Below are positions 20,532-42,001 of a DNA stretch of 46,411 nt, in pieces. The notes under the pieces are model-generated. The model did no database searches. It worked only from the letters and a program-made list of their open reading frames with translations, and had not been told where the DNA came from. The stretch comes from Vulcanimicrobiota bacterium (GTDB lineage: Bacteria > Vulcanimicrobiota > Vulcanimicrobiia > Vulcanimicrobiales > Vulcanimicrobiaceae), in the NCBI GenBank assembly GCA_019240755.1, contig JAFAXS010000071.1, positions 1 to 46,411 on the forward strand, in the 5' to 3' direction. A program made the translations under genes and the position numbers. The first letter of the stretch is position 1. Every line of letters begins with the position of its first letter.

Positions 20532-21545
20532 TCAGCCCGGCAAAGTGAAGGCCTCGTCGTAGCGCAGTAGCTTGTAGACGCCGATCGAGACGAGCCAGCT
20601 CGCGACGAAGAGCCCGATAATGATGAAACCGAGTGTGCCGAAGTTTTCGTTCACGGCTCTCACCGCATCCCACAACGCGCCGCTCAGCCGAAGCTGGCCG
20701 GCGACAACACTCGTCACTTCGATCGCGCCCACGATCGCCGCAACCAGCACCGAGACGAGCGTAACGACGAGGTTATAGTACAGCTTGCGTATCGGCCGCA
20801 CGAACGCCCAGCCGTAGGCGCCTACCATCACGATGCCGTCGGTGGTGTCGATCAGCGACATGCCGGCGGTAAAGAGCAGCGGGAAGATCAAAATCGCAAA
20901 GACCGGCAGCCCTTTTCCCGCTTCGACCGCCGCAATTCCCAGCAGCGCCACTTCGGTCGCGGTATCGAATCCTAGCCCGAAGAGTAATCCTACCGGATAC
21001 ATCTTCCAACTGCGATCGACGATGCGCAGCAACGGCCGAAAGAAGCGTCCCAGCAATCCGCGCCGGTCGAGCATTGCGCCCACGGTTTCGTTGTCGATCC
21101 TCTCACCACGCCGCGCTCGACCAAACGCTGCGAAGACGTCGAGGAGCACGATGAGATTTATCCCGGCAATCAGCAGCAAGAACGCCGCCGAGATCGCCGT
21201 GCCGACGAGTGTGCCGACTTGCTGGAGCGACGGTAGGTGCACCTTCACGAGCGCCGCCGCGAGCGCGATTGCTACGGTCAGCGCGACGACGACTGTCGAG
21301 TGGCCGAGCGAAAAGAAAAACCCGACGCCGACGGGCCGCCGTCCCTCTTGCATCAGTTTGCGCGTGACGTTGTCGATCGCGCAAATATGGTCGGCGTCGA
21401 CCGCATGGCGCAAACCGAACGTAAAGGCGAGCAGCGCCGTTCCGAGCAGCACCGGATGCGACCAAAATGCGAGCAACGCCGCCGCCCAGGCGCCTAGATT
21501 CATCGCAATCAAGAGCGCATAGATGCCGAGAACTCGCGTACGCAT
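20532..21545 (-). CDS. NiCoT-family nickel/cobalt transporter (HoxN/NixA-like)
   Basis: The product is 337 aa from ATG 21545, two bases after the TPR gene's stop; the longer open frame runs back into that gene. The NiCoT signature HAVDADHI (47-54, in the second membrane segment) binds the metal. It is accompanied by FSLGHSTVVV, LGFDTATEVALL and GMSLIDTTDG, the other three conserved NiCoT motifs. About eight membrane segments are visible, as usual for this secondary importer family. It acts in the cytoplasmic membrane and imports Ni2+ or Co2+; the metal cannot be told apart here. As the last gene of an operon headed by a NicO efflux protein, it suggests a combined metal-handling unit. Confidence 0.92.
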   Translation of the reverse strand: MRTRVLGIYALLIAMNLGAWAAALLAFWSHPVLLGTALLAFTFGLRHAVDADHICAIDNVTRKLMQEGRRPVGVGFFFSLGHSTVVVALTVAIALAAALVKVHLPSLQQVGTLVGTAISAAFLLLIAGINLIVLLDVFAAFGRARRGERIDNETVGAMLDRRGLLGRFFRPLLRIVDRSWKMYPVGLLFGLGFDTATEVALLGIAAVEAGKGLPVFAILIFPLLFTAGMSLIDTTDGIVMVGAYGWAFVRPIRKLYYNLVVTLVSVLVAAIVGAIEVTSVVAGQLRLSGALWDAVRAVNENFGTLGFIIIGLFVASWLVSIGVYKLLRYDEAFTLPG

Positions 21546-21547
21546 CC

Positions 21548-22861
21548 TCAGCTCCCGAGCTGCGTCAGCACGCGGCGCGCATCGTCCGCGTAGAAAGGAT
21601 GGAAGTGCGGGTTCGTTGCGAGCGCCGCCGCGAGCCGGCGCCGGGCCTCGGCGGTGTGCCCGGTATGCCAGGCGATGATGCCGGCGTGGTATTGGACTTC
21701 TGGATCTTGAGTGCCGTACCGCACGGCTCGCTGCGAGTACGCCCGCGCCGCATCCCAACGGCCGATTGCAGCGTACACCCACGCCGTCGTGTCGTCGGCA
21801 TAGATCTCGTCCCCGCGCTTTGCCAGGTCGGAGAGTGCCGCTCGCAGCGCCTCGTGAAGATGCTCGCGATGCTCCGCGTAATACATCGCGAGAAGGCGAT
21901 CGTTAATACCCTGCGCGTTGAAGAGCCGCTGCTCCGCACCGATGAGCGCATCGGTCGTGCGCGCCGCCGCGGCGTCGCCGAGGGCGCGCTGCGCGTCGGC
22001 TTCGTAGCCCAGCGCCTGCGGGAGGGGATAGAGCTGCGCGCTGCGGGTTGCCGAGGCCAGCGTTCGCGGCCAGTCGCGCTGCGCGCGATGGAGCTTCGCT
22101 TGAAAAAGCAGCGCCATCGCGTTGTCGGGAAAGACGCGCAGGGCTTCCGCGAAGCCTGCCTTAGCGGCATCCTCATCGCCCGCCTCGAACGCCAGCTGCG
22201 CCTCGCGCATGTGATACCACGAGCGCGCGTAGGCCGCGATGCTCGGCATGCCGTCGACCATCGCAGTCGCTTGCGCCATCAGCAGGCGCGCGCCGGTGAG
22301 GTTACCTGTGAGCTCGTCATAGCGAGCGCGAATCGACATCCAGGTAGGATTCGGGTCGCGGTCGCGTGGCCGATCGAGAATGCTCCGGGCCTCCGCATAC
22401 CGCCCCATCTCCATCAGGATGGACGCAATCTGCGCGCGCGCCTCGTCGTTGAATGGCTCCGCCGCAAGGGCGTCGCGTTCGGCGGCGAGCGCGGCGGGAA
22501 ACTTATGCAGCGCGAGCTCGCACGAGGCGACCACGCTCAACGCCGCGTCGTTGCCTTGACGCTGCAGCTGCAGCGAGCGCATCGCCGCGGCGAGCGCACG
22601 CGTCACGTCGTTGAGGTCGCCGGTCTCCCGAAACCGCTGCAAGTATTCGGCGCCGAGCATGCGCCGGGTGATCTGATCGTCGGGGTCGCGACGCGCCTGC
22701 GCTTCGTCAAAGGCGATCGTTGCATTGCGCGTTCGGTAATCGGCATACACAGGTGCGGTCGAGGCGGCGCTGGCCTGCGCGCGGTGCGCGGCGAACCACG
22801 GCCATGCCGCCCCGACGGCGGCGGCCGCAACTAGAACGACAGCCGCGCTGCGTCCGCTCAC
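21548..22861 (-). CDS. membrane-anchored TPR protein
   Basis: The product is 437 aa from GTG 22861, one base after the stop of the preceding lipoprotein gene; the open frame extends into that gene and is trimmed accordingly. One N-terminal membrane segment (AAVVLVAAAAVGAAWPWFAA) is followed by helical TPR units: LGAEYLQRFRETGDLNDVTRA, LAAERDALAAEPFNDEARAQ, LFQAKLHRAQRDWPRTLASA, TAWVYAAIGRWDAARAYSQR, IAWHTGHTAEARRRLAAAL. TPR domains mediate protein contacts, and this one would face the periplasm. Its fixed place between the DUF4331 proteins and the NiCoT transporter suggests a scaffold for them (inference). Confidence 0.82.
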   Translation of the reverse strand: MSGRSAAVVLVAAAAVGAAWPWFAAHRAQASAASTAPVYADYRTRNATIAFDEAQARRDPDDQITRRMLGAEYLQRFRETGDLNDVTRALAAAMRSLQLQRQGNDAALSVVASCELALHKFPAALAAERDALAAEPFNDEARAQIASILMEMGRYAEARSILDRPRDRDPNPTWMSIRARYDELTGNLTGARLLMAQATAMVDGMPSIAAYARSWYHMREAQLAFEAGDEDAAKAGFAEALRVFPDNAMALLFQAKLHRAQRDWPRTLASATRSAQLYPLPQALGYEADAQRALGDAAAARTTDALIGAEQRLFNAQGINDRLLAMYYAEHREHLHEALRAALSDLAKRGDEIYADDTTAWVYAAIGRWDAARAYSQRAVRYGTQDPEVQYHAGIIAWHTGHTAEARRRLAAALATNPHFHPFYADDARRVLTQLGS

Positions 22862-33968: not shown

Positions 33969-34425
33969 TGAAAGCTTGTTTCAAGCTAACCGTCGAAGCG
34001 AAGGGCAAGGTTCGCTCCGCATTCCGGCGTGCGAATCGACGGGTTAAAGGCGCGCCTGCGCCCTGCAACACAGCGGACGGCAAGTCATAAGTGGGCTCAG
34101 AATTCGGTGTCTATAGATTTCGCGGCAGGCGGCTGTGCCAACTCGAGCCGATCGGCTGAGCGGGCCTGCAAGCACCCGAGCCGGGTCGCCCTGGTAGCGC
34201 CTTTGTGCGCAACCACCGGCTTGCGTTTTGAAAGATGGCCAATCGAGGTCGACGCGCCGGCACGACGACGGCATGTAAAAGTATAGCGCGAAACTTGCGT
34301 TCGTGGTATACTTGGCCTAAGAAAACGTACTCGAATTATGTCCGCATAATTATGCGGATGTAACTCAAAGGTCCCGATGCGACATCGTTCGCGCGGGGCT
34401 TTTTCTTTTGCCCGAGGTGAACGTC
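33969..34425. other. intergenic region upstream of the relaxase
   Basis: It contains a short hairpin right after the NHL stop (AGCTTG/CAAGCT, 33973-33987), a spaced inverted repeat AAGTATA (34279-34285)/TATACTT (34307-34313), and the palindromic operator at 34339-34358. An origin of transfer would be expected here or in 31801-32942; no clear IncP-type nick site is visible. No gene is seen. Confidence 0.45.
34339..34358. promoter_or_regulatory. palindromic operator upstream of the relaxase gene
   Basis: TCCGCATAATTATGCGGA (34341-34358) is a perfect 18-base palindrome. With its TG flank it matches the reverse complement of 36966-36985 at 15-16 of 20 positions. The shared motif TGTCCGCAT-N4-ATGCG before both transcription units points to one regulator. 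Confidence 0.6.
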
Positions 34426-36852
34426 ATGATCTCCAAGGCAGTGTCGGCGCGATCGCGCACGCGCACCTTCGCAACCGGCATCGACTACATCACCGAGCAT
34501 GCCCACGAGCGCGCGTGTCGACAGGCCGGACGTTCCTTCGAAGATGGCATCGGATACGCGAGTGCACCGAAAAAGGCAGCCTGGGTACAGCTACGCGGCG
34601 TCACCTCGGTTGAGACGGCTGCACTGGAGATGGAAGCGGTCGCCGTGCTCTCACGACGCTGCAAGGATCCTGTTTATCACTTGATCGTGGCCTACGCCAA
34701 GGGTGAGCATCCGACGCGCGGTCAAGTCGTCAGCGACGCGGAGCGGCTCCTGAAATCGGTCGGCATGGAGCGCAATCAGTATGTGCTGGCGGCACACCAG
34801 GATACCGACAACTACCACGCCCACGTGATCGCCAATCGCATCGGTCCGCACGGCAAAGCGAACGACCTGTGGCACGAGCGGATCAAGCGTGAGCGCACCT
34901 GTGCGGAGGTCGCAGCGGAGCGTGGCTGGGAGATCGTCATCGGCCATCACAACCGCGACATCGTGCAGCGGGCGCGCCATCTATATATGCCGCCGGCGGA
35001 CCCCGAGCGAAGATTGAGCGATAGCGCGTATCGGCAGCTGCACGAGCGCGGCGAGCTGCCGTGGCACGAGAGTGCGCGTCCCTACGCGCTCGATGCCGTC
35101 GACCGCGCCAAGGACTGGAACGATCTGCATCAGCGGCTGGGCGCGCACGGTGTCGTCGCGAAGCTTGTTCGGCGCGGTGAGCGGATACGGGGGCTAGCAT
35201 TCGCCGAAGGGTTCGAGCGCGGTGCGCCGGGTTGCGCAGCATCACGCATCGATGCGGGCTGCGCCTTGCCGGCGCTCGAGCGGCGCTTCGGACCGTTCAC
35301 GCCGTCGCACGAGCTCGTAAAGGAGACGGTGGATGCGACGCGCTGGGCGCAAAACGCGCGATTAACGATCCTCACCGCGGTCGATTGCGCGCGTTCATGG
35401 GGCGATCTAACGCAGCAGCTCGACCGCGACGGCATCGTCGTCAAGCTGATCGCGCGCGGCACGCGCGTGCAGGGACTCGCATTCGCGCAAGGGCGCGATC
35501 CGGGCGCATCGGGCTGCGGCGCGTCCCGCATCCATCCAGGTTGCAAGAAAGCGGCACTCGAGCAGCGCTTCGGCCCATGCCCGTTTATGCCGGAGCAACC
35601 GCCGAAGCGCAGCCGCAGCATCGTTCGCGATCGGGCCGAGCGCGAGGCAACCACGGACCCGCGCTGGGCGCTGCGCGACGCGCAACGCATCGTCGACCAC
35701 GCCCGGATGCGCTCGGAGTACGCTGGGTATCGCGACCGGTTCTTCGGCGAGCGTCATGCTGCAACGGCAGCGCGCCGTGAGGCGGCATGGGAGCGCGAGC
35801 AGATGCAGCGCCGGTGCGAGGCTCAGCGGCGCCGCGAAGCGCGCCTGCTCTTGCGCGCAGTGGCGCGGCTGGCCGCGCGCGGCGCGGTCGCCCGGCAACT
35901 CGCGTACTGGTCGATCGGCGTCGTTATCAATCGTCGGCGCGCGCACGAGTACGGCGCTGCTCGGGTGCGCTGGGAGGCAACCAAGATCGTGCTCGCGTCG
36001 GAGCGCACGTCAGCACGCGAGAAGAAGCCGCTGGACTATCGTTTATATGTTGTGCAGCGAGCGCGCGCCGGCGATCTTGGAGCGCAGCGCGTTTGCGACG
36101 CATTCGATGCTCCCGTGCGTAACCGGCACGGGCGAACCCCAGAGGCGCAATTGCAGCCGGCAACCCTTGAGCAGGTGCGCGAGCGCTTGAACGTGATTCG
36201 CACCGAACATGAGGCCCGCTACGAGCGCGCTCGCGCCGAGCGCGCGGGCTTGCCCCGCGTCGAGCGGCCGCCGACGATCGGGCAGGCGCTCGCGGCGGCG
36301 CGAAACGAGATCGAAGCTCACGTCAGCGACGTAACGCAGTTCACACCGGCCGAACGCGTTCTGCTCGCGCGGCTGACGAAGGAGCAGCAATCCTGGAATC
36401 CGTTCGTGCGCAACGCGGCCAAAAGGGAAGCGGCGAAGCTCCATGGCGAGCAGCACTCGCGCTATGAGGCGGAGCTCACTAAAGCAATGCGCAACTTTGA
36501 GAGTAACGACGCCACGCAAATTGAACAACGGATTCGAAGCAATGAGCGAATCTACCGCGAGCACGTGGCTGCGTCGCTCGATCTTGAAACCCAGATGCGA
36601 CAAGCGCGGGCCGAACTACGCGACGAGATACCCAAGGTCGAAAAGCAGTTGACCATGCTGCAACGTACCGGCGTTGCACAACTCGACTGCGAGGGTGCGT
36701 TATGGGGCGCCGGCCTGGAGAAGCTCGCGGCCGCCGTCGATCGCCCGTACCAGGCGCTGCCGCGGGAGCTGCGGCGGGACGTCGAGTTCACCGCGCGTCA
36801 AGAAGAGCGCGCTTTGCGTCGGAGCCGTGAATCGATTTCGATGGAGCGGTAA
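34426..36852 (+). CDS. MOBP relaxase, RP4-TraI-like
   Basis: The product is 808 aa from ATG 34426, with GAGGTGA upstream; the frame opens six codons earlier. The N-terminus MISKAVSARSRTRTFATGID-Tyr21 aligns by eye with the RP4 TraI start, Tyr21 matching its catalytic Tyr22. Motif III is HQDTDNYHAH (His124, Asp126, His131, His133), the metal-binding triad region. After the nuclease come two copies of the TraI accessory module (about 224-294 and 318-388), each with (D/S)W-x-DL and an LE-x-RFGP end. The rest (about 400-808) is Arg/Ala/Glu-rich helix. The enzyme nicks oriT and stays covalently bound to the transferred strand. No mobC/traJ-like partner is seen. Confidence 0.88.
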   Translation: MISKAVSARSRTRTFATGIDYITEHAHERACRQAGRSFEDGIGYASAPKKAAWVQLRGVTSVETAALEMEAVAVLSRRCKDPVYHLIVAYAKGEHPTRGQVVSDAERLLKSVGMERNQYVLAAHQDTDNYHAHVIANRIGPHGKANDLWHERIKRERTCAEVAAERGWEIVIGHHNRDIVQRARHLYMPPADPERRLSDSAYRQLHERGELPWHESARPYALDAVDRAKDWNDLHQRLGAHGVVAKLVRRGERIRGLAFAEGFERGAPGCAASRIDAGCALPALERRFGPFTPSHELVKETVDATRWAQNARLTILTAVDCARSWGDLTQQLDRDGIVVKLIARGTRVQGLAFAQGRDPGASGCGASRIHPGCKKAALEQRFGPCPFMPEQPPKRSRSIVRDRAEREATTDPRWALRDAQRIVDHARMRSEYAGYRDRFFGERHAATAARREAAWEREQMQRRCEAQRRREARLLLRAVARLAARGAVARQLAYWSIGVVINRRRAHEYGAARVRWEATKIVLASERTSAREKKPLDYRLYVVQRARAGDLGAQRVCDAFDAPVRNRHGRTPEAQLQPATLEQVRERLNVIRTEHEARYERARAERAGLPRVERPPTIGQALAAARNEIEAHVSDVTQFTPAERVLLARLTKEQQSWNPFVRNAAKREAAKLHGEQHSRYEAELTKAMRNFESNDATQIEQRIRSNERIYREHVAASLDLETQMRQARAELRDEIPKVEKQLTMLQRTGVAQLDCEGALWGAGLEKLAAAVDRPYQALPRELRRDVEFTARQEERALRRSRESISMER

Positions 36853-37279: not shown

Positions 37280-38437
37280 ATGAAAGGCTTTCTTCGCAAA
37301 CGGGGGAACGTCTGGTACACGACGTTCGACTTGCCGCGTTTGCCTAACCAACCGCGACGTCAGAAGTGCGTACGACTCGGGCGAACCTCAAAAGCCGAAG
37401 CGCAGGAGCGCGAACGTCAGGTACTGCGCCGCAACGACGAAGGTTCGTTAACCGAGGAATCGACCAAGACGGTAGGCGATCTGCTCGACGCCTGGCTGAC
37501 CGACCTCAGGCCAACCGCGAAATCGCAGACGATCTCACCGACGACGTATCAGCGTTATGCGTCGATCGTGAAATTGCACCTGAAGCCGCACTTGGGTGCG
37601 GTGTCGCTTCGACGGCTGAGCGCCGGCGATATCACGACTGCCTACGGCAGGGTGCGAGCAAAGGGCCTGTCGGGCCAGTCTTGCCTGCACACTCACCGCG
37701 TGCTTCATACCGCACTCGAGTACGGGACGAAGACGCTGGGATGGCTGCGAGCCAATCCGGCGGCTGCGGTGCGCAGCCCAAAGGTGACGAGAAAAACGGC
37801 GGCTTTGGACGGCAACACCGTACCGATTCTGCTGGAGGCGACCAAGGGAACACGGTTTGAATATCCTGTAGCGCTTACTGCAACGACCGGACTACGCCGC
37901 GGTGAGCTGCTCGCACTGCGATGGTCGAAAAGCGTCGACTTCGAGCGTAGGCGTCTGATCGTCGCGGAATCTCTCGAAGAAACGAAGATCCTCGGGCTGC
38001 GGTTTAAGGCGCCGAAATCGGGCAAGCTGCGCGTTCTCCCGTTAGCCGACGTCGCGGTTCCACTGCTCCGTTCGCATCGTGCCAGGCAGGACGCTGAGCG
38101 CCAGCGGCTCGGCTCGCGCTACAACGATAACGACCTGGTCTTCTGTAACCCCGATGGAACGCCGTGGCCACCCGAGACGTTCACCAAGCAGTTTGCCCAA
38201 GTCACGCGGTCGATCGGGATGAAGGGCTTTCGCTTCCACGACCTACGCCACGCGTTTGCAACGCTGACACTCAAGAACGGGACATCGGTGAACGAAGTCT
38301 CTCAGCTCCTCGGGCATTCGTCGCCGGTCATCACACTGTCCACCTATGCGCACGTGATCGAGGGTGTCGCGCGTGATGCAGTCAACCTGCTGGCGAACAG
38401 CTTGATCTCGCGTCCGACAGGAACGGACGGTGCGTGA
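37280..38437 (+). CDS. int: tyrosine-recombinase integrase of the element
   Basis: The product is 385 aa. It has an N-terminal arm-binding strand region (GNVWYTTFDLPRLP), a SAM-like core-binding domain (about 60-165), and a catalytic domain with all residues: Arg206 in TTGLRRGE, a beta-hairpin Lys in APKSGKLRVLPL, His320-x-x-Arg323 in HDLRHAF, His346 in LLGHSS and nucleophile Tyr356 in STYAHV. It integrates and excises the element at tRNA-Ser by strand exchange through covalent 3'-phosphotyrosine links. It is co-transcribed with the HTH gene and points at attR. The first right-hand arm repeat overlaps its stop codon (38434-38442), so att sequence and coding sequence are interlocked. Confidence 0.95.
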   Translation: MKGFLRKRGNVWYTTFDLPRLPNQPRRQKCVRLGRTSKAEAQERERQVLRRNDEGSLTEESTKTVGDLLDAWLTDLRPTAKSQTISPTTYQRYASIVKLHLKPHLGAVSLRRLSAGDITTAYGRVRAKGLSGQSCLHTHRVLHTALEYGTKTLGWLRANPAAAVRSPKVTRKTAALDGNTVPILLEATKGTRFEYPVALTATTGLRRGELLALRWSKSVDFERRRLIVAESLEETKILGLRFKAPKSGKLRVLPLADVAVPLLRSHRARQDAERQRLGSRYNDNDLVFCNPDGTPWPPETFTKQFAQVTRSIGMKGFRFHDLRHAFATLTLKNGTSVNEVSQLLGHSSPVITLSTYAHVIEGVARDAVNLLANSLISRPTGTDGA

Positions 38438-38524: not shown

Positions 38525-38566
38525 CTTGGAGAGGTGGCAGAGCGGTTGAATGCGGCGGTCTTGAAA
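38525..38566 (+). repeat. attR: right 42-bp direct repeat
   Basis: It is identical to attL. It forms the 5' half of the intact tRNA-Ser and ends at the anticodon loop, where strand exchange probably occurs. Confidence 0.92.
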
Positions 38567-38615
38567 ACCGCAGGACCTGATGAGGGTTCCGAGGGTTCGA
38601 ATCCCTCCCTCTCCC
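38528..38615 (+). tRNA. tRNA-Ser(UGA)
   Basis: Acceptor GGAGAGG (38528-38534) pairs with CCTCTCC (38608-38614). The anticodon stem GCGGT/ACCGC encloses loop CTTGAAA (anticodon TGA, reads UCA). A long variable arm and the T arm GAGGG-TTCGAAT-CCCTC follow, which is the class II layout of tRNA-Ser. CCA is not encoded. Base 73 reads C rather than the usual G. The 5' half comes from the mobile element and the 3' half from the chromosome. Confidence 0.93.
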
Positions 38616-38822: not shown

Positions 38823-40079
38823 ATGCGAATTGTTTCGTTCCTTGCTTGTGCTGTACTGCTGGCAAGTTGTGGCGGCGTACGATCACTGCCGGCAACTTCT
38901 GATCTTTCGCCGTCGAGCTTTGGGTATGCTGCGGCGCGACACAACACAGGTGGCCCATGGTTGTGCGGACAGACGCCGTCGTTGCGTACACAGGTTGACG
39001 TCGGCGAGCCGTTCTCAAAAAGCTATCGCTCGTTATACCACTTTAGAGCCGGCAACACCGACGGTGGGCTTCCATATGGCAACCTCACGCTGTACAAGAG
39101 CAACTTCTACGGAACGACCGATCAAGGCGGGACGGTGGGCTGGGGAACGGTATTCGAGATTACGCCCGCGGGCAAGGAAAAAGTACTTTACAGTTTCCAG
39201 GGCAAGCCCGATGCCGCGTATCCCTGCGACGGTTTGACGCTCGTCAAAGATACGTTTTACGGGACCAGCCAGACCGGCGGCGCGTACGGATGGGGCGCCG
39301 TGTTCAGCGTGACGCCGCAGGGGCAAGAACGGGTGCTCTACAGTTTCAAGGGCGGCCGCGATGCCGCAGTTCCCTACGCGGGTCTGCTGTATCTCAAAGG
39401 CAAGCTCTACGGCACGACGGTCGAGGGTGGCAAGTACGGATGGGGCGCCATCTTTGAAGTAGCGGGTGGAAAAGAGCACGTCGTCTACAGTTTTAAAGCG
39501 GGAACGAAAGACGGCGCATATCCTTATTCGAAGCTGATCGCCATCAAAGACGTCCTCGTTGGAACGACGATGGGTGGAGGCGATCCCGGTTGGGGCACGA
39601 TCTTCGCCTGCACGCTCGGGGGCAAGGAGCACATCGTTCATAGTTTCAAGGCCGGCCCGAGCGACGGCGCGTATCCATTCGATGCACTGACCGAGCTCAA
39701 CGGCAAATATTACGGAACGACCAAGGAAGGCGGCAAGATCGGTTATGGCGCCGTCTACAGCTTGACGACGACCGGCAAAGAAGCCCTCGTATATTCGTTC
39801 AAAGGCGGCAACAAAGACGGCGCGTATCCGTACGCCGGATTGACGCCGCTGAACAGTGTCTTATATGGGACAACGGTGGACGGCAATCCGGCAAACTGGG
39901 GAACGGTATTCGCCGTCACTCCTGGGGGAAGGGAAGCGGTTCTCTATAATTTCAAAGCCGGTAGCGACGGGGCGTATCCGTTTGCGCGCCTTGTCAACGA
40001 TCAGGGAACGCTGTACGGAACGACCGAGGGCGGCGGTTTCAGCCAAGGCTGGGGCACGGTGTTCCGCATTACGCCGTAA
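38823..40079 (+). CDS. GloVer tandem-repeat lipoprotein
   Basis: The product is 418 aa with lipobox LLASC (LACAVLLASCGG). After a linker of about 60 residues there are eight repeats of about 45 residues: FYGTTDQGG, FYGTSQTGG, LYGTTVEGG, LVGTTMGGG, YYGTTKEGG, LYGTTVDGN, LYGTTEGGG and an N-terminal degenerate unit. Each is followed by GWGTVF/GWGAVF and VLYSFKGG strands with an A-Y-P-x-A-x-L turn. A beta-propeller on the cell exterior is expected; function unknown. It is more regular than the paralogue at 28339. Its stop lies in the loop of a compact hairpin. Confidence 0.88.
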   Translation: MRIVSFLACAVLLASCGGVRSLPATSDLSPSSFGYAAARHNTGGPWLCGQTPSLRTQVDVGEPFSKSYRSLYHFRAGNTDGGLPYGNLTLYKSNFYGTTDQGGTVGWGTVFEITPAGKEKVLYSFQGKPDAAYPCDGLTLVKDTFYGTSQTGGAYGWGAVFSVTPQGQERVLYSFKGGRDAAVPYAGLLYLKGKLYGTTVEGGKYGWGAIFEVAGGKEHVVYSFKAGTKDGAYPYSKLIAIKDVLVGTTMGGGDPGWGTIFACTLGGKEHIVHSFKAGPSDGAYPFDALTELNGKYYGTTKEGGKIGYGAVYSLTTTGKEALVYSFKGGNKDGAYPYAGLTPLNSVLYGTTVDGNPANWGTVFAVTPGGREAVLYNFKAGSDGAYPFARLVNDQGTLYGTTEGGGFSQGWGTVFRITP

Positions 40080-40089: not shown

Positions 40090-41964
40090 TCATCCTCCGT
40101 TGATGTCCAAGAAGAGTTCCGTTGCGAGCGCGATCAGAAAGCCCGCGCACATCGTCGCCGTGACGGGCGCGGTAAGCCCGGTGCGCCGCAGCACGCTCCA
40201 GAGCTCGCCGATCACGAAGACCAGCGCGCCGACCGCAACGGCGAGGAAAAATACGGAGAGCGTCGGCGAGTAAAAGCTGTAGCCGATTATCGTCCCGAGA
40301 AACGTCGGGCCGCCGGCGATGAGCCCTGCGAGACCGATCTGCGCCCACGAGGGAACGACGCGCCCGACCAGCGGCGCCGCCACGCCGAAGCCTTCCGTCG
40401 CGTTGTGCAAACCGAAGCCGACGATTAGGGCGAGCGCGATCGCCGTCGCTCCCGCAGCGGCCGACGCGCCGATCGCGAGACCTTCCCCGAAGTTGTGCGC
40501 GCCGATCCCGATCGCGATCACGGCGGCTAAGACGATCGGATTTTCGGCGTGACTGGCGGCTTGGCGGGCGAAGTGCGTGGCGGCGCTCCCGAGGCCGACG
40601 AGACCGAGCATCAATCCCACGACGAACACCACGACGAGCGCCACTGGAAACGGATTGCCGCCGGCGTGCCACGCATCGAGCCCCTGCGAGATCGGCGCGA
40701 TCGCGTTTCGCGCGATTTCGACGACGAGATAGAGCAGAATTCCGATCGCCAGCGCGTTGAGCATCGCGATCGTCGTCGCCGAGAGGCGCCGCGCGCGCGC
40801 GATCGGTAACCCGAGAAAGATCGTGAATCCCGCGATCGCGCCCAGCAGCACCGTCATGCCGAAGCTTAGCGCGCGCACCGGCGCGGGCACGGCGGGGGCC
40901 ATCGCGCGATACATCATCGCGAGCGTGTTCGGCGTGCCGGCATAGTGAATCGCGGTCACGAGCCCCGCGGGCATGCCGCTCGCATCCTCGATGTGATCCA
41001 TCACGTGACAATGAACGAGCCAGGTTCCAGGTTTCGCGTTCGCCGTAACGACGACGTCGATGCGCTGCCCGGGCGCGACCAGCACGGTGTCCTCGACGTC
41101 ACGGTAGTCGACCGGCGCGGCGTCGCGCGCCACGATCTGCTGATAGTGGCCGTGCGTGTGCATCGTGTGGAACTCTTCGCCCGAGATGTTGATCCAGCGA
41201 ATGCGAAAACGCTCACCGCGCCTTACCTCCATGGCGCGCGTACTCGGGTACTCCTTGCCGTTGAGTGTAAAATGATTCTCCGCCGCGCTCTGGATCTGCC
41301 ACGACGAGATCATCTCGAGAAAATCGTGCGCGAGATTGCGTTCCGGCGCGGTGGGCGTCGACGGCTGAACGACGATCGCCCCGTACAGCCCCGAATCGAG
41401 CATCGCCTCGTTATCATGCGTGTGATAGATGAACGTGCCCGGCTGATCGGCAACGAAGCGGTAGATGAAGTGACCGTCCGGCGGAACGAGCCGTTGCGAG
41501 ATTCCGCCTACGCCGTCCATGTCGACCGGAATGTCGTGGATGCCGTGCAGGTGAATCGAGTCGGGCACGTGGCCGTCGTTCACGTAATCGAGCACCACGG
41601 TGTCGCCCTGGCGCACCGCGATGACCGGCCCCGGCACGATGCCGTTATACGTATTGGCCATGACCGTCAGCCCCGGCTTGAGTGTCCACGGCGCCGGCCG
41701 CTCGACGATGCGAAAGGTCTTGACGCGTCCCCGAGCCGTCGGAACGGCCTGAAACGAGCCGTCGAGCCGCCCAATTAGCCGCGACTCGCCCGGCGCCGGC
41801 GTCGCCGCCGGAAACGGGGGCGCAATCGGCTGCAGGCCGAGAGAGGTCGAGTTCGGGGACGCCGCCGCATTGTCGGCGTCGGCCAGCGCAACCCCCGGGG
41901 CGATCAGGAACGCCGCGGTCATCAGGAAGAGCGCCGCGGCCGCGGGACGTAGAAGGGGTTTCAT
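40090..41964 (-). CDS. multicopper oxidase fused to a ZIP metal transporter
   Basis: The product is 624 aa from ATG 41964, giving a good signal peptide (AAALFLMTAAFLIAPGVALA); the frame opens 24 codons earlier inside the operator region. Residues about 60-345 are a two-domain multicopper oxidase with all copper ligands: HLHG (138-141), HTHD (181-184), HTMHTHGH (266-273), and HCHVMDH with Met331 for the type-1 copper. Residues about 360-624 form a ZIP transporter with HNFGEG (490-495) and HNATEG (520-525) in two membrane helices. The oxidase would sit outside the membrane and oxidise a metal such as Mn2+, Fe2+ or Cu+ next to its own channel (inference). Divergent from the FAD/cytochrome pair. 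Confidence 0.9.
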   Translation of the reverse strand: MKPLLRPAAAALFLMTAAFLIAPGVALADADNAAASPNSTSLGLQPIAPPFPAATPAPGESRLIGRLDGSFQAVPTARGRVKTFRIVERPAPWTLKPGLTVMANTYNGIVPGPVIAVRQGDTVVLDYVNDGHVPDSIHLHGIHDIPVDMDGVGGISQRLVPPDGHFIYRFVADQPGTFIYHTHDNEAMLDSGLYGAIVVQPSTPTAPERNLAHDFLEMISSWQIQSAAENHFTLNGKEYPSTRAMEVRRGERFRIRWINISGEEFHTMHTHGHYQQIVARDAAPVDYRDVEDTVLVAPGQRIDVVVTANAKPGTWLVHCHVMDHIEDASGMPAGLVTAIHYAGTPNTLAMMYRAMAPAVPAPVRALSFGMTVLLGAIAGFTIFLGLPIARARRLSATTIAMLNALAIGILLYLVVEIARNAIAPISQGLDAWHAGGNPFPVALVVVFVVGLMLGLVGLGSAATHFARQAASHAENPIVLAAVIAIGIGAHNFGEGLAIGASAAAGATAIALALIVGFGLHNATEGFGVAAPLVGRVVPSWAQIGLAGLIAGGPTFLGTIIGYSFYSPTLSVFFLAVAVGALVFVIGELWSVLRRTGLTAPVTATMCAGFLIALATELFLDINGG

Positions 41965-41965
41965 T

Positions 41966-41979
41966 TTAGGCGTGCCTAA
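41966..41979. promoter_or_regulatory. DtxR/MntR-like operator, proximal copy
   Basis: TTAGGCGTGCCTAA has inverted arms TTAGGC/GCCTAA around GT. This resembles the boxes bound by DtxR/MntR/IdeR-type metal-dependent repressors. It abuts the MCO-ZIP start codon. Confidence 0.5.
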
Positions 41980-41987
41980 GGTTTTTG

Positions 41988-42001
41988 CTAGGCATGCCAA
42001 T
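41988..42001. promoter_or_regulatory. DtxR/MntR-like operator, distal copy
   Basis: CTAGGCATGCCAAT is similar to the proximal box, with the core TAGGC-RT-GCC in common. Its centre is 22 bases away, about two helical turns, allowing repressor dimers to bind the same face. Confidence 0.45.

Follow-up and report, generated by a model that had tools for sequence, protein, structure and literature searches.

A multicopper oxidase-ZIP permease fusion with an IdeR/DtxR-type box in uncultured soil bacteria: a candidate iron-uptake protein

A gene encoding a multicopper oxidase (MCO) and a ZIP metal permease in one polypeptide was found in the window, the whole 46,411-nucleotide stretch that was analysed, which is an entire contig of a 2.59-Mb genome. 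The fusion is conserved in related genomes, and a palindrome of the type bound by IdeR/DtxR regulators abuts its start codon. We propose that the protein is an iron-starvation-induced, membrane-tethered oxidase-ZIP uptake unit, which would be like yeast Fet3-Ftr1 in function with a permease that is not homologous. This reading is drawn from sequence, and we place slightly more belief than doubt in it.

Gene and domain layout

Only one gene lies within positions 40090-41964. It is on the minus strand and runs unbroken for 624 codons from an ATG at 41964 to a stop codon at 40090-40092. The order in the chain is a signal peptide, a two-domain MCO, a short Met-rich linker and a complete eight-helix ZIP. 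The features of the gene and of the region upstream of it are the following:

40090..41964, minus strand: gene for the 624-aa MCO-ZIP fusion (one uninterrupted frame; each half matched in Pfam and the PDB; more than 60 genomes with orthologues)
41878..41964, minus strand: signal peptide, about residues 1-29, ending in GVALA before DAD (hydropathy and a model helix; cleavage site placed by eye)
40939..41724, minus strand: two-domain multicopper oxidase, about residues 81-342 (Pfam, match to 2zwn, copper ligands)
40873..40938, minus strand: Met-rich linker, about residues 343-364 (Met content in 48 orthologues)
40093..40863, minus strand: ZIP half with eight predicted TM helices, about residues 368-624 (profile, model and motifs)
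41966..41979, no strand: palindrome TTAGGCACGCCTAA, which matches the consensus for the 14-bp half-site of IdeR/DtxR and is placed 1 bp before the ATG
41989..42000, no strand: further copy of the box, less perfect (TTGGCATGCCTA), noted by eye

The signal peptide is hydrophobic at residues 9-27 and forms a helix at residues 5-28 in an AlphaFold2 model of the whole fusion protein. This model, made with 18 close sequences, has a pLDDT of 56 and was used solely for the succession of helices and strands. Eight helices lie C-terminal to the oxidase in the model.

The oxidase half

Pfam places Cu-oxidase_3 at residues 96-202 (7e-29) and Cu-oxidase_2 at residues 228-327 (3e-27) of the fusion protein. 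The nearest solved structure to the N-terminal half is the two-domain laccase 2zwn (2e-45). Over the two cupredoxin domains, the motifs HxH, HxH, HxxHxH and HCHxxxH supply the copper ligands H138, H140, H181, H183, H266, H269, H271, H318, C319, H320 and H324. The T1 site is in domain 2 and is formed by H266, C319 and H324, with M331 as the likely axial ligand judging from the sequence, while the other His residues belong to the T2/T3 sites. The original prediction that all copper ligands of the oxidase are intact was therefore borne out, since the eleven His/Cys ligands and M331 are all present. The eleven are invariant in 48 distinct orthologues except for a single H318Q; the axial position is variable, with Met in 37 of the 48. 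Domain 1 has no T1 Cys, and the residue there, T182, is Thr or Ser in 48/48 orthologues.

In fold and copper ligands, this half is like the 2zwn metagenome laccase, the Nitrosomonas europaea blue copper oxidase (BCO) 3g5w and the small laccases. The T1 Cys is in domain 2 both here and in the small laccases, whereas the alignment puts the HCH of 2zwn and 3g5w in domain 1. Unlike the two-domain laccases and BCOs, the fusion bears a C-terminal ZIP. Two-domain MCOs need to form trimers to build the trinuclear copper site, and we infer that the MCO half assembles as trimers.

The linker and the ZIP half

Met accounts for 13.4% of the linker compared to 2.6% overall (48 orthologues), and most orthologues have an MxxxM at positions 351/355. 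For the ZIP half, the Pfam Zip model matched residues 470-581 (2e-7) with 30.8 bits, slightly under its cut-off of 35.1. A profile made from relatives of the ZIP half matched BbZIP (5tsa) in the PDB over its full length (E=1.7e-18). A profile was required for this match, as phmmer with the single ZIP-half sequence found none in the PDB. When the predicted model of the ZIP half, which has a modest pLDDT of 62, was searched with Foldseek, the only significant matches were 5tsa and 5tsb.

The ZIP half shares the 8-TM fold and the HNxxEG-type motifs of TM4 and TM5 with BbZIP and E. coli ZupT. These motifs (H490, N491 and E494 in TM4; H520, N521 and E524 in TM5) are conserved in 48/48 orthologues. 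Unlike in BbZIP and ZupT, which both have a metal-ligand Glu in TM6 (E240 in BbZIP), the equivalent residue is T554, in the sequence GGPTFLG, and it is Thr in 48/48 orthologues. Both ZIP metal motifs had been predicted to be intact; this holds for TM4 and TM5, but not for TM6, where the Glu is replaced. The Thr is common to stand-alone homologues of Mycolicibacterium: two plasmids of this genus (L055 and L056) carry ZIPs of the same TM6-Thr (GGPTFxG) clade that are about 42% identical and have no adjoining MCO.

Recurrence of the fusion

Contigs from 20 GTDB species encode the same protein with 66-85% identity, three of them clipped by the contig end. By label, 19 of the contigs are Eremiobacterota or Eremiobacteria and one is given as bacterium only. 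The Eremiobacterota hosts are uncultured soil bacteria, and the record titles place several of the genomes in palsa and bog. When a ZIP profile was run over 148 genomes of the phylum, 66 full-length matches were found with E below 1e-97, all in families f1-f3, and 63 of these share one open frame of at least 600 codons with an MCO. The three exceptions are a copy at the start of a contig (G044), one with a frameshift (G097) and one with a stop codon inside the frame (G134). Inside families f1-f3, the ZIP of the fusion clade is essentially never separate from the MCO. The oxidase and ZIP halves have evolved in step: over 1081 pairs, the identities of one half correlate with those of the other (r=0.96).

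The original prediction of an oxidase and a ZIP in one chain is thus upheld by a single frame that recurs across genomes of the phylum. The probability that two separate genes were merged by faulty assembly, by a frameshift or by chance read-through is negligible, given the 63 in-frame copies, the invariant ligands in both halves and the presence of the same frame in dozens of independent genomes.

Two orthologous oxidases (L070 in G008 and L071 in G137) have one hydrophobic helix instead of the ZIP half. In the tree they branch from among the fusions, and neither has the box described below.

A protein encoded on a plasmid of Deinococcus sp. KNUC1210 (WP_239052023), annotated as 'multicopper oxidase domain-containing protein', likewise combines a related MCO with a same-clade ZIP in a single polypeptide, in the reversed order with the ZIP first. 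Its oxidase groups beside the Eremiobacterota set in a small tree with a long branch and few outgroups. Its neighbours are ArsR/SmtB, CDF and P-type ATPase genes, a metal-resistance setting. Since the two parts have been joined twice, in opposite orders and in two phyla, it seems that the halves cooperate. In the Deinococcus fusion (L054) and in an Eremiobacterota copy (L073, G103), Gln takes the place of the first HCH His, with the loss of one T3 copper ligand.

An IdeR/DtxR-type box at the start codon

The redefined IdeR/DtxR consensus is TTAGGNNNNCCTAA (PMC8464063). In the 2.59-Mb genome of the window, TTAGGCNNGCCTAA occurs within one mismatch at one site, that of the fusion, compared to 10 sites for a reversed control pattern. 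The consensus TTAGGNNNNCCTAA is conserved with a variable centre across three families. Of 51 distinct MCO loci, 35 have an exact box close to the start, and several further loci have the box with one or two base changes. In some orthologues (L013, L020 and L051) no box can be recognised. Among 36 box sites, the ten flanking bases are fixed and the central four vary, which argues for selection on the arms. Sequences like TTGGCATGCCTA were also seen by eye at the equivalent place in many upstream regions of the same genus.

In ten genomes, 19 TTAGGNNNNCCTAA sites were found, compared to 21 for the control. The total is not enriched and, thus, the evidence from the box is one of position and not of number. 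Each genome has one of these sites ahead of the fusion or its operon, ten in all; nine lie directly before the fusion and one stands before a regulator-fusion operon. Five of the 19 precede a gene for a Cyc2-like protein. From the reversed-pattern control, the chance of a site in any 250-bp window is about 2e-4, to be read with the fact that these counts come from related genomes and are not independent draws. The position of the box suggests that the fusion is a candidate member of an IdeR/DtxR regulon, made when iron is scarce.

A candidate regulator

In family f3, a DtxR-family gene is directly upstream of the fusion, and the box precedes that gene in four of five loci. Every genome tested has one regulator with the IdeR primary-site pattern (EMYLK and EACxxEH, the N-terminal EMYLK having been read for a subset of the regulators). 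The primary site consists of Met10, Cys102, Glu105 and His106, and the ancillary His79 and His98 positions vary. In sequence, the regulator with this primary site resembles IdeR 1fx7 and the Saccharopolyspora erythraea IdeR structures. With NCBIfam, MntR scored slightly higher than DtxR, both under all equivalog cut-offs. Because these family scores are not decisive, the metal sensed by the IdeR-like regulator was judged from its ligands.

Some genomes also have an MntR-like paralogue (EDYVK, EAExxEH) beside an NRAMP gene. This paralogue was considered as the regulator of the box and rejected, since no box is near it and three genomes with the IdeR-like protein only still have the box.

A second box target and other iron systems

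The other recurrent target of the box is a gene for a Cyc2-like monoheme cytochrome-porin (L132-L136, from G042, G016, G075, G063 and G055), with TTAGGNNNNCCTAA shortly upstream in 5/5 close copies. On this evidence, the boxed gene is a putative second member of the iron regulon. The protein has 370-380 aa and one CXXCH, immediately preceded by AxPxFAH(Q/R/E)Y. The defining motifs of Cyc2 are AXPXFAR[Q/K][T/Y], CXXCH and PXL (PMC8406198). Due to the His in place of Arg, we call the boxed protein Cyc2-like; no model in Pfam or NCBIfam matched it. Cyc2-like genes in Eremiobacterota have been reported already (PMC8357290). In the window's own genome, the sole Cyc2-like relative is unboxed and 30% identical.

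FeoB_C and FTR1 (PF03239) had no match in 17 genomes, while the controls were positive elsewhere. Each genome has one strong match to a FecCD-type permease and two to six matches to NRAMP and, therefore, the fusion is not the sole possible iron route. The fusion may be an unrecognised bacterial route of iron uptake and is a candidate importer where FeoB and FTR1 were not found.

Proposed mechanism

In the proposed unit, the Met-rich linker would tie an exported two-domain MCO covalently to a ZIP permease at its N-terminus, which would lie in the periplasm. When iron is plentiful, an IdeR-like, Fe2+-sensing repressor of the DtxR family would sit on the start-codon box and silence the gene. Under iron scarcity, the fusion protein would be made. 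Using O2, the oxidase may then act on a metal or a metal-ligand complex at the entrance to the ZIP half, and the ZIP half would take that metal, most likely iron, on into the cytoplasm. We infer the iron substrate, the repression by iron, the catalytic activity and the hand-over from oxidase to permease.

Several results point to iron uptake: the placement of the box in ten genomes, the regulator-fusion operon of family f3, the IdeR-like primary site, the boxed Cyc2-like gene, the missing FeoB and FTR1 matches, the lack of a box at the ZIP-less orthologues, the two fusion orders and the correlated halves. Other points speak against it. A ZIP would be expected to carry Fe2+, and a ferroxidase would make Fe3+. 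The TM6 Glu is missing from the ZIP half, and the NRAMP genes could already import Fe2+. The Met-rich linker and the MCO relatives would suit copper too. Finally, the NCBIfam score of the regulator leans to MntR, some orthologues are boxless and the genomes compared are related.

A wider version of this proposal is that these bacteria have a counterpart of yeast reductive iron uptake, built from unrelated parts under one iron repressor, with the Cyc2-like outer-membrane cytochrome-porin and the oxidase-ZIP fusion replacing FeoB/FTR1. The cytochrome-porin would handle iron redox at the surface, and the periplasmic oxidase would feed its attached permease. We regard this wider version as speculative and rather improbable.

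Comparison with known systems

ZIPs are known as transporters of divalent ions. As in yeast Fet3-Ftr1, an MCO is physically joined to a metal permease and apparently made under iron scarcity. Unlike in Fet3-Ftr1, the permease is a ZIP, the MCO has two domains rather than three, and the partners are covalently fused instead of forming a complex. Ftr1 carries REXLE motifs and transports Fe3+ that is channelled to it from Fet3 (PMC11817551). No REXXE or DXXE motif was found in the ZIP half, making a literal Fet3-Ftr1 mechanism doubtful. Of the Fet3-Ftr1-like layout suggested at the outset, the conserved single chain of MCO and ZIP stands, but the strict analogy is doubtful on chemical grounds. 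A connection with iron, for which no evidence was given at the outset, gains support from the conserved box and the regulator-fusion operon of family f3.

The nearest published kind is the MCO1 and ZIP pair of ammonia-oxidising archaea, in which the MCO of lineage MCO1 (Kerou 2016) adjoins a ZIP gene (PMC7785015, PMC5767755, PMC5817080). For this pair, Reyes et al. 2020 made a Fet3p-like proposal for copper and saw mild induction under copper limitation (PMC7785015), so the idea of an MCO plus a ZIP working like Fet3 is already in print for adjacent archaeal genes. Going by the published description, both systems couple a two-domain MCO to a ZIP permease. Unlike the archaeal pair, with its two adjacent genes and its assignment to copper, the fusion is a single bacterial chain with an IdeR-type iron box. 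Our search, which left subscription journals mostly uncovered, found no literature on the fusion, on MCO with ZIP and IdeR, or on Eremiobacterota with MCO.

The fusion could likewise serve copper acquisition or homeostasis, with the oxidase converting Cu+ to Cu2+ and the ZIP half importing Cu2+, as Reyes et al. propose for the archaeal genes. The Met-rich linker with its MxxxM spacing would suit copper, as would the metal-resistance setting of the reversed Deinococcus plasmid fusion. The IdeR/DtxR box on the gene and the adjoining IdeR-like gene in family f3 argue against this explanation, and no recurrent copper genes were seen in the neighbourhood of the fusion. We therefore consider a copper function possible, though unlikely.

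Another possible explanation, to which we give a rather low probability, keeps iron as the imported metal. Here, the oxidase would act on phenolic or catechol chelators, or on hydroquinones that then reduce Fe3+, and the Fe2+ set free would enter through the ZIP. This would remove the mismatch between Fe3+ and a ZIP. It also fits the laccase-like MCO (2zwn, small laccases) and the origin of several host genomes in palsa and bog, which are presumably rich in phenolics. Against it, neighbours for siderophore or phenol metabolism are not conserved beyond close genera.

We think it very unlikely that the fusion serves to detoxify iron or copper. In that case, an IdeR-like protein would activate the gene in iron excess, the oxidase would clear periplasmic Fe2+ (or Cu+) and the ZIP would be secondary. 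In its favour, IdeR is able to activate certain genes, and detoxification is a role of MCOs such as CueO. Against it, the box sits right at the start codon, where a repressor would be expected to act, and the intact, conserved ZIP motifs imply transport.

If the fusion is an iron-uptake unit, as we propose, it also bears on the archaea. Copper and hydroxylamine chemistry have both been put forward for the archaeal MCO1-ZIP pair, with no test so far that decides the matter, and in N. maritimus a system for taking up inorganic iron has yet to be recognised (PMC9723733). An iron-boxed bacterial fusion of the same make-up suggests that such modules may serve iron. The fusion also provides a one-gene construct for probing hand-over from an oxidase to a permease.

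Gene neighbourhood

A divergent FAD monooxygenase gene and the genes near it are common only to the same genus and one sister genus. Since the sharing stops there, the neighbourhood was given no weight as a clue to function. The gene that follows immediately downstream of the fusion, in the opposite orientation, encodes a GloVer-repeat protein (TIGR03803, seven stretches; 38823-40079). Further along are a MobA/VirD2-type relaxase gene (34408-36852) and a tyrosine integrase gene (37280-38437) that ends beside a tRNA-Ser(TGA) (38528-38615), and GC is lower from about 26 kb in the window. The window probably contains an integrated mobile element with its right end just before the neighbourhood of the fusion. 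A NicO-type high-affinity nickel transporter (PF03824, 2e-98) is encoded at 20532-21782 of the window.

Two plasmids, Afipia pOC167 (L057) and one from Leifsonia (L058), encode related oxidases that are C-terminal to a membrane domain, annotated as DUF4396 in L057. These represent another membrane-tethered two-domain MCO architecture found on plasmids, and in Afipia copC/copD adjoin the gene.
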